From positions 1-30,672 of IMG/VR virus record IMGVR_UViG_3300005549_000023: 30,672 nucleotides of DNA. The stretch is one strand, 5' to 3'. Position numbers and translations under genes: made by a program. The notes beneath the pieces are model-generated. The model saw only the letters and a list, made by a program, of their open reading frames with translations. It was not told the origin of the DNA and did not search any database. Positions within the stretch are counted from its first letter, which is position 1. Every line of letters starts with the position of its first letter. Shown piece by piece: positions 128 through 10,317 of the stretch. Origin of the DNA: a virus.

Positions 128-295
128 ATGAAATTTACCGAAGCAGTTATAGTCGCCATCATCAGTAACGCTACCACGATCCTTGTGGTGGTACTCAGTC
201 GAATCTGGAGCCATCTGGAACATCGGCAGACAGAACAGACCGTGACAGACACGAATGAGAAGGTAACGGGGCTGGTGAACGGAAAGATCTTGTAA
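128..295 (+). CDS. small single-pass membrane protein, holin-like
   Basis: This is a 55-residue protein. Residues about 6-25 form one hydrophobic helix (AVIVAIISNATTILVVVLSR), followed by a short polar tail ending GLVNGKIL. A small one-helix protein heading a cassette of membrane and coiled-coil proteins fits a holin or accessory lysis membrane protein, but nothing in the sequence proves it. No clear Shine-Dalgarno precedes the ATG. The next gene begins 16 bases after the stop, so the two are probably co-transcribed. Confidence 0.55.
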   Translation: MKFTEAVIVAIISNATTILVVVLSRIWSHLEHRQTEQTVTDTNEKVTGLVNGKIL

Positions 296-310
296 CAGGA
301 GACATCGTGC

Positions 311-904
311 TTGGCAGAAGGGAGCAAACAAAGGATCGGGTTAGGGGTAGACGCCTATGGCGGGGCTGTGATCGACCCCACGAAGAACGTGCTGGATCTC
401 ACCGCTGCTGCCAACAAGAGACAGGATGATCTTCGCAACGCACATGACCTGCTTATTGCAGCGGAAATCAGACGACTGGAAGAATCCGTCAAGCGCGTTG
501 AGCAGGTGTCAGAATTAAGAGCTGAGCACGCCCGTGAGATTGGCCTTATCCACCAAAGCCATGATCGAGAGATTCACAAGATGGAGCAGGATAAACTAGC
601 CGCTTTCCGTGCCAGTGACGAGATGGCTAGAATCACGGAAGCCAACCGGAGTCTTGCGGCGATTCAGGTGGTTGAGCGAACGCTGAACTCGACAGCCACG
701 GCCTTGGCTAGTCAGAACGCGGAGAACAACGTCGAGGTAAACAGGCGATTAGCGGCACTTGAAAAGTCTAGCTACGAAGGCGCTGGCAAAGGTACGGGAG
801 CAAAGAACATTGTCACGTACGCAATTGTGGCTGTAGGATTGCTGGTATCGCTGATAACCATCGGCTCAGTGGTAGTAGGGATAGCCTTTGCAATCAAACG
901 TTGA
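311..904 (+). CDS. coiled-coil protein with C-terminal membrane anchor
   Basis: The protein has 197 residues and starts at TTG, with AGGAG about 9 bases upstream. The N-terminus carries VDAYGGAVIDPTKNVLDL and an RQDDLR motif; from memory, similar motifs occur in small membrane-associated proteins of other uncultured tailed phages, but I cannot check this. Residues about 40-150 are charged and heptad-like, suggesting a long coiled coil. Residues about 167-195 form one strong transmembrane helix (IVTYAIVAVGLLVSLITIG) with a basic end, so it would be a tail-anchored protein. A lysis or membrane-organising role is an inference from its neighbours. Its stop overlaps the next start (TTGA). Confidence 0.7.
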   Translation: MAEGSKQRIGLGVDAYGGAVIDPTKNVLDLTAAANKRQDDLRNAHDLLIAAEIRRLEESVKRVEQVSELRAEHAREIGLIHQSHDREIHKMEQDKLAAFRASDEMARITEANRSLAAIQVVERTLNSTATALASQNAENNVEVNRRLAALEKSSYEGAGKGTGAKNIVTYAIVAVGLLVSLITIGSVVVGIAFAIKR

Positions 905-2685: not shown

Positions 2686-4599
2686 ATGACCTTACAAGAG
2701 CAAATCGAGCTCATCATCGGCCCACAATCTGCTAATGGAGATTGGTTTGATACAACGCTACTAAGTAAGGCGAGACAGCATGGGGAAGCGTGTCCGGCGA
2801 TTGCGCCACAAAAGCCCGAGTCTCCGGTTCAGCCACTCGAAAAGGACTTCGCTACCATTGATGCTTATCGCACGGCGCTGAAAGCATGGACAGAAGTTCC
2901 CGTCATTGCTGCGTGGATAGCCGCGCTCGACGCTTATATTTTGCTCAACTACTACGATTTACCGTCGAGTGAATACACCGCACATGCGCGCAGCGGAGAA
3001 CCTGCGTTTCTCACGCTGGGGGATAAGTGTGCCGATGCGTGGTGGACACATCCAACGTGGATAGGCGAGGGACGGATTAGACTATGGCTTCCTAGACCGC
3101 AAGGGAATGAGGAGGCATCGCCACCACCACGCCATGCGGGGATTGCAGGGTTAATACGTCGCGCAGAGAAGCGCCCCGAGATGTGGGACTGGCTCAACGA
3201 CTATGTTTCGTACTTCTTTCATATCTACATCGGGCGCCGATTGACCGAGCCGCTCTACGATGTGCGTGAAGGTGCATTTACACTGAGGTATGCAGCGTGG
3301 CTGTCGCAGCTTCTACCCGACAGTTTTCCAACACAGGCGGGAGGCCGAACGGACGGAGCTCAACTCCGCGCAGCCTACCTGAAAGCCGTTGAATCAGCCG
3401 CAGTTGATTACTTCGGGCGTAATCAGCGCGCAGATGGAGCTTACGTTTGGAATGATAACTGGCCCGATGACGACGGCACGCTCCAAGGCGTTATGCAGCC
3501 GTTCATTGTCGGTCTGCTGCTCCAGTCACTCTGCGTCGTTCATAGGGTAACGACCAACCCCGCTGTCAAGGAGAATGTTAAGAACCAGATCTGCAACGGC
3601 TGTCGCCATCTCTACAGTAATGGACCTTACATCAAGGACCAGATAGAACAGAACTCCGGCAAGCGCATCCGTGGCTTCCACTACTTCTATCATGGAGGCA
3701 ACACGGTAAATCCGACGAAGTACGAGCAGGGTGATATTCGCTTCCCTTGGACCGCAACAGAAGCATGGTGGTTGCCGAGTACGCGCCAGGCGATCTCCAC
3801 AATCCTCGGTCCATTCGGATATGCATACAAAATCTCAGGCGATGAATTCTTCAAATCCGCAGGCAATGAGATGTACGACGCTGCCTACTTAGGCACTGAT
3901 GGCGTACGTGCAATGATGGACGACACGGCAAAGAACTTCAATCAGCATGTCATGGGATCATCTAGTTACAAGGCATGGGTTGGAGGCGTAGTGAGTCCTC
4001 CACCAGCGCCGCCCGCGCCTGCCCCCACCCCTACTCCTGAGCCCAGCCCAGACGGAACTAAGGCAACAACGATCGTTGATTCAAGTCGTGCGACATGGAC
4101 GATAGGCTCAGCAAGACAGACCTTGCGCAACGGAGTACAGGTAGGTGGTGGCGAAGGATCGATTTACAAATACCTCTCACAAGTTGTTTATGTCTCTGGT
4201 ACTGATGGATTTTGGTACAAGTGGCTGGGTAGCGCATGGGAGAGACAGACGCAGACTGAGCCGGGAACGATGCCAAGCCCCACACCGACACCGAGTCCCA
4301 CGCCGATTCCTACTCCAATACCTACGCCTACACCTTGCACAATGATGGTCAGTTCTCCGACAATTCCCGCATGGGGTACTGGAAAACTCATTGTTACGCT
4401 CACAGGGTTGACTGGGCCAGGTGAGGTCAAAGTCACTTCTAATTCAGGACAAATCACTGTCACGCCAAACTCTAAACCTGTAAGCCCAGATACGACAAGT
4501 GTGATTGCGGAATTTCAGTTGCAGGCGAAGAAGAAATCAGGGACGGTGACGGTGAGCGGGCCGTGTGGGACACAAACAGTCACTATCCCTGTACGATGA
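2686..4599 (+). CDS. 637-residue multidomain protein with Pro/Thr linkers
   Basis: Residues 1-435 form a Trp- and Tyr-rich, mostly helical domain. Motifs such as YVWNDNWPDDDGTLQG and FHYFYHGGN near 255-350 recall the helical-toroid folds of polysaccharide lyases and hydrolases, but I cannot name a family or a catalytic residue. A Pro/Ala linker (about 438-458) leads to a roughly 70-residue domain with WTIGSARQTLRNG, VYVSGTDGFWYKW and WERQ, resembling a Trp-rich module seen in bacterial secreted proteins. A second linker of PTPTPSPTP type (about 530-550) leads to a C-terminal beta-rich, Ig-like domain of 87 residues. No signal peptide is visible. It may be a virion-associated or released glycan-active protein; that is inference. 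It has its own promoter and ends four bases from the convergent vWA gene. Confidence 0.75.
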   Translation: MTLQEQIELIIGPQSANGDWFDTTLLSKARQHGEACPAIAPQKPESPVQPLEKDFATIDAYRTALKAWTEVPVIAAWIAALDAYILLNYYDLPSSEYTAHARSGEPAFLTLGDKCADAWWTHPTWIGEGRIRLWLPRPQGNEEASPPPRHAGIAGLIRRAEKRPEMWDWLNDYVSYFFHIYIGRRLTEPLYDVREGAFTLRYAAWLSQLLPDSFPTQAGGRTDGAQLRAAYLKAVESAAVDYFGRNQRADGAYVWNDNWPDDDGTLQGVMQPFIVGLLLQSLCVVHRVTTNPAVKENVKNQICNGCRHLYSNGPYIKDQIEQNSGKRIRGFHYFYHGGNTVNPTKYEQGDIRFPWTATEAWWLPSTRQAISTILGPFGYAYKISGDEFFKSAGNEMYDAAYLGTDGVRAMMDDTAKNFNQHVMGSSSYKAWVGGVVSPPPAPPAPAPTPTPEPSPDGTKATTIVDSSRATWTIGSARQTLRNGVQVGGGEGSIYKYLSQVVYVSGTDGFWYKWLGSAWERQTQTEPGTMPSPTPTPSPTPIPTPIPTPTPCTMMVSSPTIPAWGTGKLIVTLTGLTGPGEVKVTSNSGQITVTPNSKPVSPDTTSVIAEFQLQAKKKSGTVTVSGPCGTQTVTIPVR

Positions 4600-4602
4600 T
4601 CT

Positions 4603-5265
4603 TTACTTCGGTAACTTTGGCTTACCTGATGGCTTCATCATTCGTGCTCGCTGACCGTGGGAGAAATGCAAACTCTGCGCCCGCGCAGTTTTTCGATAAT
4701 TACCTACATTCGAAGACGCTACCGCAAAGGCATCAGCGGTTGCTGCGCCTACGTAGTTCGCCGCTGCTGCTGACGCTATTCCGATCTGACCCGCCTCGTC
4801 AAAGGCATCTTGATTAGCACCCAAGTAGACAAACTGCCAGTTGTACTTGTTGGTTTGTTGCTCAATCAACTGCTTGACATCGGCCTTCGAGTGCTCAGTA
4901 CTGGAGTTCTCCTGTCCGTCGGTGATGATCACAAACACCACCTTGTCAGGGCGGTTCATCTCGGGGATTGCTGCCAGCGCTCGCCCCGCGCTGTGAATGG
5001 TTTGGCCCAAAGCATCGAGCAATGGGGTTCCGCCACGCGGCTGATAGGTGCTGTCGGTCAAGTCTGGCACTTCCTTAATCGGCTTGGACTCATGGACAAC
5101 ATCAATTCCTCCGGTATCAAACTGCACCAACGTCAATAACGCATTGTCGCCAGCCTTCTTCTGCTCACCAATGAATTGATTGAACCCGCCAATTGTGTCC
5201 TCTTTAACCGATTGCATAGAACCCGAACGATCTAACAGAACGGTGATATAAGTCTCGTCCTTCAT
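4603..5265 (-). CDS. von Willebrand factor A domain protein
   Basis: The protein has 220 residues, almost all of it a vWA fold. The metal-ion-dependent adhesion site is complete: D12-R-S14-G-S16 (DRSGSM), T80 in RGGTPLLDALG, and D116 in ITDGQEN. This predicts Mg-dependent protein binding rather than catalysis. The last 25 residues are basic. It has no signal peptide or membrane helix, so it should act in the cytoplasm. Similar stand-alone short vWA proteins occur in phages and bacteria with no settled role. Its start overlaps the stop of the HTH gene by four bases (ATGA), so the two are one operon, the only one on this strand. Confidence 0.85.
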   Translation of the reverse strand: MKDETYITVLLDRSGSMQSVKEDTIGGFNQFIGEQKKAGDNALLTLVQFDTGGIDVVHESKPIKEVPDLTDSTYQPRGGTPLLDALGQTIHSAGRALAAIPEMNRPDKVVFVIITDGQENSSTEHSKADVKQLIEQQTNKYNWQFVYLGANQDAFDEAGQIGIASAAAANYVGAATADAFAVASSNVGNYRKTARAQSLHFSHGQRARMMKPSGKPKLPK

Positions 5266-5474
5266 TTCTGCTCCTTGTCTTTAACGTAGTTAGTCACAGC
5301 CCGTAGACCGTAACGGTTGAGTACCTTCGGCCCCGGCGCACGCCGACGCTTTAATACGTCACCTAAATACTGCTCGGAGATGTCCATCTTTGCGGCCGCT
5401 GCTTTCTGTGACCCTTCGGCCTTTACATCGTCCTCAATCTTCGCAAGCAGTTGGTCTATTGTCAGGTGTCTCAT
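5262..5474 (-). CDS. small helix-turn-helix DNA-binding regulator
   Basis: The protein has 70 residues. GSQKAAAAKMDISEQYLGDV followed by LKRRRAPGPKVLNRYG is a typical Xre/Cro-type helix-turn-helix: Gln-Lys in helix 2, the recognition helix ISEQYLGDVL, then a basic RR-x-PGPK segment. The start at 5474 is chosen because it gives a complete domain; the same frame is open to 5765 but that extension has no domain character. A promoter lies 9 bases upstream, which makes the transcript nearly leaderless, as is known for some phage repressors such as lambda cI. It may repress its own promoter and the divergent one at 5527-5555. Confidence 0.8.
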   Translation of the reverse strand: MRHLTIDQLLAKIEDDVKAEGSQKAAAAKMDISEQYLGDVLKRRRAPGPKVLNRYGLRAVTNYVKDKEQK

Positions 5475-5483
5475 ACGCGGATA

Positions 5484-5526: not shown

Positions 5527-5555
5527 GTGACTGTGCTGTGAAGTTTGGTTAAACT
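5527..5555 (+). promoter_or_regulatory. divergent forward promoter before the candidate RNA
   Basis: GTGACT at 5527-5532 and TAAACT at 5550-5555 are 17 bases apart; the -10 is identical to that of the 2343 promoter. Transcription would start about 5561-5563, at the foot of the GGCTGG/CCAGCC hairpin (5560-5584). The promoter lies back to back with the HTH promoter, so the HTH protein could control both. Confidence 0.4.
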
Positions 5556-5559
5556 ACGA

Positions 5560-5890
5560 GGCTGGAAACATGGGCAAGCCAGCCAAAGGGAAACTATGTA
5601 GAGTTTGTGAAGTTCTAAGTTTGATCTTTGATTGCGGTGGCGCTCTGACGGAAGCGCTCGGAAAATAGGGATAGTGGAAGAGGCTATGGGAGACCTGCTT
5701 AGGTCGTTGATACCAGAGCGCATGACGATGGAAAAGAATACTGCGCCTGTCCTCGTTAGGACCACTTGGGCTAGCCTAGGTCATCGTTGGCCGAAAGAAG
5801 CGATAAAAGCACAGGTCGCGGAACGACGGTGGGACTGTTCCCTGTTACTGAAGTCCCAAACGTGGTTTGAATCCACGACGCAATCAACCA
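5560..5890 (+). ncRNA. candidate structured RNA with tRNA-like closing domain
   Basis: This stretch has little coding character but many exact complementary pairs. Ends: TTGATTGCG (5628-5636) pairs over 9 bases with CGCAATCAA (5879-5887), followed directly by CCA (5888-5890). Next to the 5' strand is GCGCT-CTGACGGA-AGCGC (5640-5657), D-arm-like with GG in the loop. Before the 3' strand is CGTGG-TTTGAAT-CCACG (5861-5877), a 5-bp stem with a 7-base loop like a T-arm, though the usual loop C is U. Between them lie tetraloop hairpins at 5692-5705 and 5749-5762, and two possible pseudoknots: 5718-5722/5742-5746 with 5725-5730/5782-5787, and 5811-5815/5841-5845 with 5830-5836/5852-5858. A 5' hairpin sits at 5560-5584. 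The topology recalls tmRNA, but I find no tag peptide frame. It lies just before the terminase genes. It could instead be a packaging RNA or an unknown class. Confidence 0.5.
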
Positions 5891-5909
5891 ATGAAAGGAG
5901 GTGGTACCC

Positions 5910-6002
5910 ATGCTTGGTGGCGATTCGAACTTCGATCCTAACTACCAGCGCAAGAAATCGCGGGGGACGCATCCGCTGAAACACGCAAGGATTCACCTAT
6001 GA
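5910..6002 (+). CDS. 30-residue basic peptide with very strong ribosome site
   Basis: The frame is too short for most gene callers but has AGGAGGT (5896-5902) seven bases before the ATG, one of the best ribosome sites in the window. The product is MLGGDSNFDPNYQRKKSRGT followed by a His/Arg-rich end, net basic, with no recognised family. Its stop overlaps another ATG at 5999 (13 codons, ending 6040). It lies between the candidate RNA and the terminase small subunit gene. Confidence 0.45.
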   Translation: MLGGDSNFDPNYQRKKSRGTHPLKHARIHL

Positions 6003-6045
6003 GTGCAGCTATTATTCAACGCCCTAAATCAGACTTGTGAGTTGA

Positions 6046-8183: not shown

Positions 8184-8374
8184 GGCTGATATTAGCTTTC
8201 GGAACGATCTTTTGCTCTGTGATGGCGTCCGCGTCACTTATAGCTATTACTCTCGCTACGTATGGGCTGAATCAGAACATCAACAAGTGGTTCGCCGCCG
8301 TTAGACTCTTAGTACACTCGGCAGTGGCGGTGCTTTGCCTTTGGATACTAACAAGACAGTCAAAGAACAACTAA
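8180..8374 (+). CDS. small two-helix membrane protein
   Basis: This 64-residue protein starts at a GTG overlapping the previous stop (GTGA). Two hydrophobic helices are visible: about residues 3-29 (ILAFGTIFCSVMASASLIAI) and about 40-58 (AVRLLVHSAVAVLCLWIL). The end is short and basic. I do not recognise a family; holin-like size and topology are noted but the location in the head operon does not favour that. Confidence 0.6.
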   Translation: MRLILAFGTIFCSVMASASLIAITLATYGLNQNINKWFAAVRLLVHSAVAVLCLWILTRQSKNN

Positions 8375-8439
8375 TGGACGGATTCTTCTTTCAGTGGTCA
8401 GAACCGAAAACGCTATGTGGTAAGATGCGCCTGTTATGA
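8374..8439 (+). CDS. possible 21-residue ORF coupling into portal
   Basis: An ATG sharing its A with the previous TAA opens 21 codons (starts MDGFFFQWSEPKTLCGKM) and ends in a TGA that overlaps the portal ATG. The two exact overlaps suggest translational coupling, bridging 61 bases that would otherwise be non-coding. The peptide has no known motif. The alternative is that the portal start at 8436 uses the TAAGAT -10-like element at 8421-8426. Confidence 0.3.
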   Translation: MDGFFFQWSEPKTLCGKMRLL

Positions 8440-9881
8440 CCCCTGAATCGTCCACTGATAGCCACCCTTACAACAACGGTGATCAACCCCAGCCCGTCTA
8501 CACTCCGAATACCTCCATCTCTACCGCCGACATTAACTGGGCACTAAAGGAGTTCGCTGCGCGTCGGGAAGACTATGTACTCGCTCGCGATTACTACAAA
8601 GGCAAACATCGATTAGCCTTTGCAAGTGAGAAACTTAGTTCAGCCTTCGGACGACTATTCAAAGCATTTGCTGACAACTTGATGCCGACTGTTGCGGAGA
8701 CGGTGAAGGACAGGTTAAAGCTCGACGGATTCACCGTACCGAGTGCGCAACCAGCCGCAGACGAACTCTGGCGTCGTAATCGGCTCAAAGTCCGCGCTAA
8801 CCAAGTCCATCTTGATGCGCTTATCGAAGGTGATGCTTATCTCATTGTCTGGCCGGATGTTGAGGGAGTCCCGGTCTTTCACCCGAATCGAGCTACCGCA
8901 ATAGTAATCGACTACGATGATGAGCAGCCGGGTTACATTGTCAAAGCGGCAAAGGGCTGGAAGGACAACGATGATCGCTACCGTCTGACGCTCTACTATC
9001 GTGACCGGATTGAGAAGTACGTCACTCGTAGCAAGATCCACGACACGATGCCAGACAGGGCAGGGGCATTCGAGCGGCTGAATGTTGCCGGTGAACTCTG
9101 GCCGCTGGATAATCCTTATGACAAGGTTCCAGTATTTCATTTTAACAATCGTGGCTCAGTTGGCGGTCTTGGTATTAGTGAGTTGACCGAAGCCATGCCG
9201 GTGCAGGATGCGCTTAACAAGTCGATTGCAGACATGTTGGTGGCAAGCGAGTTCTATGGCGTGCCGCAGCGTTGGGCTACGGGATTGGAAGAGATGACAG
9301 TTGCCGAAGCACGCAAGCGATATGCACTCGTAGGGGGTGGTGTGTGGGGCTCGCCCAGTAACGAAGTGAAGTTTGGAGAATTCGCCGCTGGGGACATCAG
9401 TAAGTACATTGAGATTAGCGAAACTTTCCGCAAAGAGATCGCCCGAGTCTCCCGGACGCCGCTGCATTTCTTCTCTATCGAAGGAACGTGGCCGTCAGGC
9501 GAGTCGCAAAAAACTTCCGAAGCGCCATTAATGGCAAAAGTAAACGACAAGACTGAATCTTGGGGCATGGTCTGGTCTGATGCGATGAGGTTCGCACTAC
9601 AAATCAGTGACGCAGGCGACACTGAGCCTGAGCCAAAATGGCTGAACACTGAGACACGCGATGCTAATGCTGAGGTTGAACGTGTTGCTACGAAGCATCG
9701 TGACTTAAAGATCCCACTAGAGGAGTGCTGGCGAGAATTAGGATACGATGAGGAGAAAATTGCGAAGATGATGAAGTTGATGGAAAAGGAGCAGGAAGCG
9801 GCAATTGAGCAACAGCGCGAGCAGTTCGCTTTACGCTCAGCAGCCAAGAAGGTGAATGGAGATAGCGAGGTCTTACAATGA
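8436..9881 (+). CDS. portal protein (SPP1 gp6-like)
   Basis: The product forms the dodecameric ring at one capsid vertex through which DNA passes. The protein has 481 residues, usual for portals. It fits the SPP1 gp6-like family: an N-terminal helical part (YKGKHRLAFASEKL), the wing region with DALIEGDAYLIVWPD and PVFHFNNRGSVGGLGISELT, a central PVQDALNKSIADMLVASEF segment typical of the stem, and a charged C-terminal clip/crown region (EEKIAKMMKLMEKEQEAAIE). Position after the large terminase supports it. There is no Shine-Dalgarno; initiation is either by coupling with the small upstream frame or from a near-leaderless transcript. Its stop overlaps the next ATG. Confidence 0.92.
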   Translation: MTPESSTDSHPYNNGDQPQPVYTPNTSISTADINWALKEFAARREDYVLARDYYKGKHRLAFASEKLSSAFGRLFKAFADNLMPTVAETVKDRLKLDGFTVPSAQPAADELWRRNRLKVRANQVHLDALIEGDAYLIVWPDVEGVPVFHPNRATAIVIDYDDEQPGYIVKAAKGWKDNDDRYRLTLYYRDRIEKYVTRSKIHDTMPDRAGAFERLNVAGELWPLDNPYDKVPVFHFNNRGSVGGLGISELTEAMPVQDALNKSIADMLVASEFYGVPQRWATGLEEMTVAEARKRYALVGGGVWGSPSNEVKFGEFAAGDISKYIEISETFRKEIARVSRTPLHFFSIEGTWPSGESQKTSEAPLMAKVNDKTESWGMVWSDAMRFALQISDAGDTEPEPKWLNTETRDANAEVERVATKHRDLKIPLEECWRELGYDEEKIAKMMKLMEKEQEAAIEQQREQFALRSAAKKVNGDSEVLQ

Positions 9882-10132
9882 CGTACCTATTCATCGGCGG
9901 GCATGCGGACGGCAAGTGGATTGCCGTACCGGACAACAACAGCGAGATCCGCATTCCGTATCAGACTGGCGGCGGCGGTTATGATAATGACACCTACCAT
10001 CCGCGACGATTAGCGGGAGGTGACGGCGGGCTGTTTACCCTGTATGTCCTAGAGGGAATCTCTGGCACAGATGCGATGAGTTGGTTAATTCATGGTTATC
10101 GCCGTGGCCCGCAGAAAGCGATAAACGCATGA
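9878..10132 (+). CDS. small hypothetical protein, Gly-rich
   Basis: This 84-residue protein starts at an ATG overlapping the portal stop. It begins MTYLFIGGHADGKWIAVPD, a short beta-rich pattern resembling many small phage proteins of unknown role, and is rich in Gly and Tyr in the middle (QTGGGGYDNDTYHPRR). No membrane helix or metal site is visible. Overlaps at both ends place it in the portal operon. Confidence 0.65.
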   Translation: MTYLFIGGHADGKWIAVPDNNSEIRIPYQTGGGGYDNDTYHPRRLAGGDGGLFTLYVLEGISGTDAMSWLIHGYRRGPQKAINA

Positions 10133-10317
10133 ACAGCAACCTCCGCTATCGCGTCGTCGCGGTCGGCGACAAGTACCACTGGCTGGATCGAAAGACGAAT
10201 CAAGCGCTTAACTATAAGAACGGCGATGAAGCGCAGTTCGACGATCTTGATGCGGCGATCGCGGCATTCATCGATGGGAAGTTGACGGTGGAGAAGAATG
10301 AGGAACTAACGCAATGA
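10129..10317 (+). CDS. small hypothetical protein
   Basis: This 62-residue soluble protein starts MNSNLRYRVVAVGDKYHWLD and ends acidic. The ATG at 10129 overlaps the previous TGA (ATGA), which decides this start over an in-frame upstream ATG at 10081. I recognise no family. Its stop overlaps the next ATG. Confidence 0.6.
   Translation: MNSNLRYRVVAVGDKYHWLDRKTNQALNYKNGDEAQFDDLDAAIAAFIDGKLTVEKNEELTQ

Follow-up and report, generated by a model that had tools for sequence, protein, structure and literature searches.

To our knowledge, few phage noncoding RNAs have been recognised outside tRNAs, tmRNAs and cis-regulatory kinds, and we know of no function for the large phage RNAs GOLLD and ROOL. 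The packaging RNA of phi29 is a further phage RNA that serves for comparison. GOLLD and ROOL are large structured RNAs of phages and prophages; GOLLD consists of conserved and variable parts, and its members often exceed 800 nt (PMC12286853). In tmRNA, helix 1 has 7 bp, of which the second is always G-C and the third always G-U, and a run of 10-13 unpaired nucleotides precedes helix 2a (PMC1168896). YrlA is a noncoding Y RNA of 90-150 nt with D-, T- and acceptor-like arms, whose ends form the Rsr-binding stem and whose tRNA-like module is a separate domain (PMC8394870).

We analysed a stretch of 30,672 nucleotides, the window, which is positions 1 to 30,672 of the IMG/VR virus record IMGVR_UViG_3300005549_000023. 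The phage encodes an SPP1-like portal, an HK97-type capsid, a tape measure protein and a weak match to the terminase large subunit. Just upstream of its terminase genes lies an element of this soil phage that we read as a probable RNA gene, small and exchangeable, rather than a component of the adjoining DNA-packaging machinery.

The candidate noncoding RNA gene occupies positions 5628-5890 of the plus strand, 263 nt from its closing helix to CCA, and has a homologue with matching end blocks in the contig of another, mostly unrelated phage. Its 5' strand, TTGATTGCG (5628-5636), is the perfect complement of its 3' strand, CGCAATCAA (5879-5887); together they make a 9-bp closing, acceptor-like helix, immediately followed by CCA at 5888-5890, as an earlier note on this DNA had described. 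The D-arm-like hairpin reported there is found at 5640-5657, with a 5-bp stem (GCGCU/AGCGC) and the loop CUGACGGA, and so is the T-arm-like hairpin at 5861-5877 (CGUGG-UUUGAAU-CCACG), with a 5-bp stem and the loop UUUGAAU. To these our analysis adds a hairpin absent from that list, at 5830-5858, with a 7-bp stem (UGGGACU/AGUCCCA), a 15-nt loop and a variable-arm-like position. The remainder, from 5664 to 5824, is a variable middle that does not align with the longer middle of the homologue. Two tetraloop hairpins that had been listed, 5692-5705 and 5749-5762, are present in this middle but are not conserved. The sequence GTTTGAATCCACG has a possible resemblance, over 13 nt with one mismatch, to the ends of type I-C CRISPR repeats; we judge the likeness a coincidence.

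The second copy was retrieved by a scan for the T-arm pattern. It lies in IMGVR_UViG_3300035691_000003 (G034, 74,840 bp), on the minus strand, between 44431 and 44052. Identity between the two copies is 97% in the 5' block (window 5625-5663) and 91% in the 3' block (window 5825-5893); similarity begins 3 nt 5' of the closing helix and ends about 3 nt past CCA. The homologue retains the two ends and the four terminal helices: the closing helix, the T-arm-like hairpin and the stem of the 7-bp hairpin are identical, the D-arm-like hairpin is preserved with one G to A change in its loop at 5651, and CCA is in place. The lengths differ, 263 nt in the window versus 374 nt in the homologue from closing helix to CCA, and about 160 nt versus about 270 nt in the middle. 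The two middles give no alignment: their local score is 14.0, and shuffled sequences average 13.6. Each phage carries one element per genome.

Within the element, the blocks differ by six substitutions, one at 5651 in the D-like loop and five (5839, 5842, 5843, 5844 and 5845) in the loop of the 7-bp hairpin. None of the 52 paired positions, among 102 block positions, is substituted, and all six changes (6/6) fall in loops. This pattern has p ~0.01 if the changes are independent and ~0.2 if the five clustered ones count as a single event; it is consistent with RNA structure rather than decisive. Compensatory base-pair changes cannot be counted, as the comparison has two sequences in which all four helices are identical. 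When the window is compared with the 20.6 kb surrounding the homologue, a single gene (window 294-902) aligns besides the element, at 72.5% identity, so the ends of the element are far more constrained than coding DNA common to both phages.

As a separate observation, that gene (window 311-904; L104 9986-10573) encodes a protein of 195-197 aa with no PHROG match, common to at least 21 phage contigs, both element carriers among them.

Relatives beyond this pair did not appear in any collection searched. Patterns for the T-arm, the hairpin, the 5' block and the acceptor found one homologue only in IMG/VR, the other matches being without a closing helix; the 3' pattern had no match in 84,980 species genomes, and a distant blastn search of GenBank phages and plasmids returned no homologue. 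A 69-nt covariance model of the 3' domain, run on 50 whole related phage records and on other loci, recovered only the copy in G034, its remaining matches being weak, T-arm-only or marginal. Rfam searches of the window and the homologue, at the gathering score and at E 10, gave nothing credible. ARAGORN finds no tRNA or tmRNA in the window, and one unrelated tRNA-Leu among the relatives. TerL searches of species genomes and GenBank phages identified no host, and in the literature on phage tRNA-like noncoding RNAs we found no match to the element.

We also described the 3' end as a 5-bp stem capped by a T-like loop, a spacer of 0-2 nt, an 8-bp helix whose partner lies ~100-600 nt upstream, and CCA. 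In 1.07 Mb of phage loci, both strands, this descriptor matches the window element and its homologue only, and it matches in 0 of 200 shuffles of the window. The combination of T-arm, closing helix and CCA is well above chance. A looser descriptor gave one extra match, in L105, inside a 214-aa reading frame; it was taken as chance.

A mere chance set of complements is thus excluded by the homologue and the descriptor test. The other form of this alternative, a small protein gene, has in its favour a 115-aa open frame (5632-5979) that overlaps the element. The frame has no Pfam match, and its equivalent in the homologue is broken by stops, one shortly past the D-like hairpin and another within the 3' block; no other reading frame is common to both copies across the element. 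The test of amino-acid conservation proposed for 5686-5979 went against a protein. Taken together, a protein gene or a chance arrangement is a highly improbable explanation.

Folding energies point to the ends. The whole RNA is not unusual (z of -0.79 in the window and -1.5 in the homologue) and the middle alone is ordinary (z of +0.8); the two conserved ends with a linker are unusually stable (z of -2.9). A specific fold of the middle is not claimed; its MFE and centroid structures differ. The two pseudoknots that had been suggested were not confirmed: the best loop-to-upstream stem in the window lies at the 10% chance level, and 73% of shuffles do as well in the joint test on two sequences. 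A pairing of 5665-5672 with the 5837-5851 loop, which seemed to covary by eye, was dropped on the same joint test (73%). Of the structured RNA with a tRNA-like closing domain that had been proposed, the conserved ends, the four helices and the lack of a common reading frame stand, and the pseudoknots are not supported.

A promoter had been placed with its end at 5555; a consensus scan detects 0 there, with 1.1 expected by chance. At the homologue, a TATAAT read by eye ends 4 nt 5' of the closing helix, without a matching -35 box, and terminator-like hairpins lie 3' of the element, the strongest about 200 nt past CCA. The TATAAT and the downstream hairpins fit a separate RNA gene.

The genomic setting bears directly on a role in packaging. 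An RNA or a pac/cos site used by the adjacent terminase would suit the position in the window, just upstream of the terminase genes. The sister phage L020, whose TerL is 99% identical, lacks the element: three ORFs stand in its place, between break points that correspond to window 5614 and 5999. In G034, the element sits between the end of the late cassette, whose last gene ends at 43832, and a minus-strand early cluster, at a junction of convergent late and early genes and on the strand opposite to the terminase. The only terminase large subunit recognised there (8233-10281; PHROG 38) matches a different PHROG family from that of the window and is about 34 kb away. Since its places and orientations differ and L020 does without it, we regard the element as optional cargo that is not tied to a terminase. 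The packaging RNA proposed earlier, or a pac reading, is largely refuted by L020 and G034, and we hold it to be very improbable.

A structured 5' leader, acting in cis on the small ORF 5910-6002 or on the terminase operon behind it, would make use of the strong ribosome site that follows the element directly; this site, noted before, is seen near 5894-5901, and a similar AAAGGAGG also occurs after CCA in the homologue, about 25 nt farther along. There, the element is directed away from the late genes, no plausible ORF starts at the ribosome-site-like motif, and a convergent gene and terminator-like hairpins lie downstream. A cis-regulatory leader is accordingly a rather improbable reading, and a role as terminase leader is unlikely.

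Several other features of these genomes were recorded. Window 5573-5617 is an orphan C-terminal end (..SQPKGNYVEFVKF, stop) of a protein that is intact in L020 (ORF 921-2666), and the related gene of the window ends differently, at 4599. Between this gene end and the orphan lies a minus-strand cassette of VWA and HTH genes (4603-5475); its VWA-domain protein (4603-5265, minus strand; PHROG 7371, E 1.8e-54) adjoins the short HTH protein and is encoded on the opposite strand within the late-gene region. A 36-bp stretch, 97% identical between window 5999-6040 and L020 3648-3695, holds a mini-ORF of 13-15 residues (MSAAIIQRPKSDL..) just before terS, which a loose pattern does not find in other relatives. 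G034 carries an auxiliary metabolic gene for phosphoadenosine phosphosulfate reductase (73599-74384; L165 11099-11884), and a 1918-aa open reading frame immediately before its terminase large subunit (L162 2480-8236).

The main rival to an RNA gene is a DNA element. It could be a site for replication or for protein binding, or else a small unit that moves or recombines, in which 9-bp terminal inverted repeats and conserved subterminal sites enclose variable cargo. In its favour, the conserved ends, with their perfect 9-bp inverted repeats, flank unrelated middles in the two phages, where location and orientation differ, and L020 lacks the element. A mobile unit would sit less easily with its single copy per genome and its scarcity (0 in 84,980 species genomes by the 3' pattern, one other in IMG/VR). 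The subterminal sequences are not mirror images, being a D-like hairpin on one side and a T-like hairpin on the other; the conserved CCA is external to the repeats; neither site shows a target duplication by eye; and a TATAAT adjoins one copy. We consider a DNA element unlikely, though it deserves real weight.

From these comparisons of sequence, it is reasonably probable that the element is an RNA gene at all, and we lean slightly towards a separate noncoding RNA gene of the phage, with a tRNA-like cap and an exchangeable middle. Left-to-right transcription would produce an RNA of about 263 nt, whose 5' and 3' ends would pair over 9 bp, the closing helix stacking on the T-arm-like hairpin. 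Closing helix, T-like arm, D-like arm and long hairpin may together build a closed, tRNA-elbow-like cap that ends in CCA, the presumed mature 3' end. Such a cap could stabilise the RNA, enable its processing by host tRNA-handling enzymes or bind a host tRNA-binding protein, and the middle would serve as a variable effector that might, for instance, pair with a target or bind a protein.

The T-loop, UUUGAAU, differs from the UUCRANY consensus at position 56 only, with U in place of C; the near match favours an elbow, and the U itself counts against the tRNA-like reading. The G to A change in the D-loop at 5651 could turn a G-U into an A-U tertiary pair with this U, and would speak in favour of an elbow, as a single observation that depends on the loop numbering. 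The closing helix and the T-stem amount to 14-15 layers. The tRNA stack has 12, and this difference makes standard recognition by EF-Tu or a synthetase doubtful. The cap may indeed act as a tRNA mimic, but we would sooner doubt it.

More tentative still is an undescribed class of phage RNA, in which a tRNA-elbow-like CCA cap closes an exchangeable effector domain and travels as a small cargo gene from one phage to another, unrelated one, its ends made by host tRNA-maturation factors and its variable module regulatory or directed against the host. The new class envisaged in the earlier note stays possible and rests on two sequences; in this fuller form we rate it as somewhat unlikely. In phages whose terminases differ, the cap keeps 91-97% identity and the middle cannot be aligned, which implies that the ends are under strong selection as a reusable handle. 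Should the element be an RNA, it would add a new natural scaffold on which variable RNA domains are presented, and would hint at the ways in which phages make use of host tRNA processing.

Set against the described systems, the element resembles the phi29 packaging RNA in being a candidate RNA near packaging genes in the window; it differs in being unlinked to the terminase of G034 and missing from a sister phage with the same TerL. The likeness to tmRNA (ssrA, RF00023) lies in these features: paired ends, a tRNA-like domain with a T-arm and CCA, and a large internal domain at the position of the anticodon arm. A divergent or decayed tmRNA would share this architecture of a tRNA-like closing domain around a large insert. 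The helix TTGATTGCG/CGCAATCAA, however, has 9 bp and zero G-U pairs, hence no G-U third pair; the D-like region is a 5-bp stem, the stretch of 10-13 unpaired nucleotides ahead of helix 2a is not found, and no helix 2 joins the ends. No tag frame is common to the two sequences, none ends in the usual -LAA, and neither Rfam nor ARAGORN returns a match. Ordinary tmRNA had already been thought unlikely, a view that these results bear out, and we find a divergent or decayed one extremely improbable. As for tRNA itself, the T-like arm and CCA are present, the helix is of 9 bp and not 7, no anticodon stem is found and ARAGORN is negative.

The element shares with YrlA a probable noncoding nature and the D-, T- and acceptor-like arms; it differs in its 263 nt and in that its tRNA-like part itself closes the ends. 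Rfam gives no match to this family, and a VWA domain is all that is recognised in the neighbouring protein, which gives no TROVE (Ro60-type) match. With GOLLD, it shares a phage-borne union of conserved and variable parts; it stands apart from GOLLD and ROOL, whose Rfam covariance models do not match it, by its 263-374 nt, its closed tRNA-like cap and the lack of an adjacent tRNA. By the tests made, the element is not a member of the tmRNA, YrlA or GOLLD/ROOL families; it is at most tRNA-capped-RNA-like.
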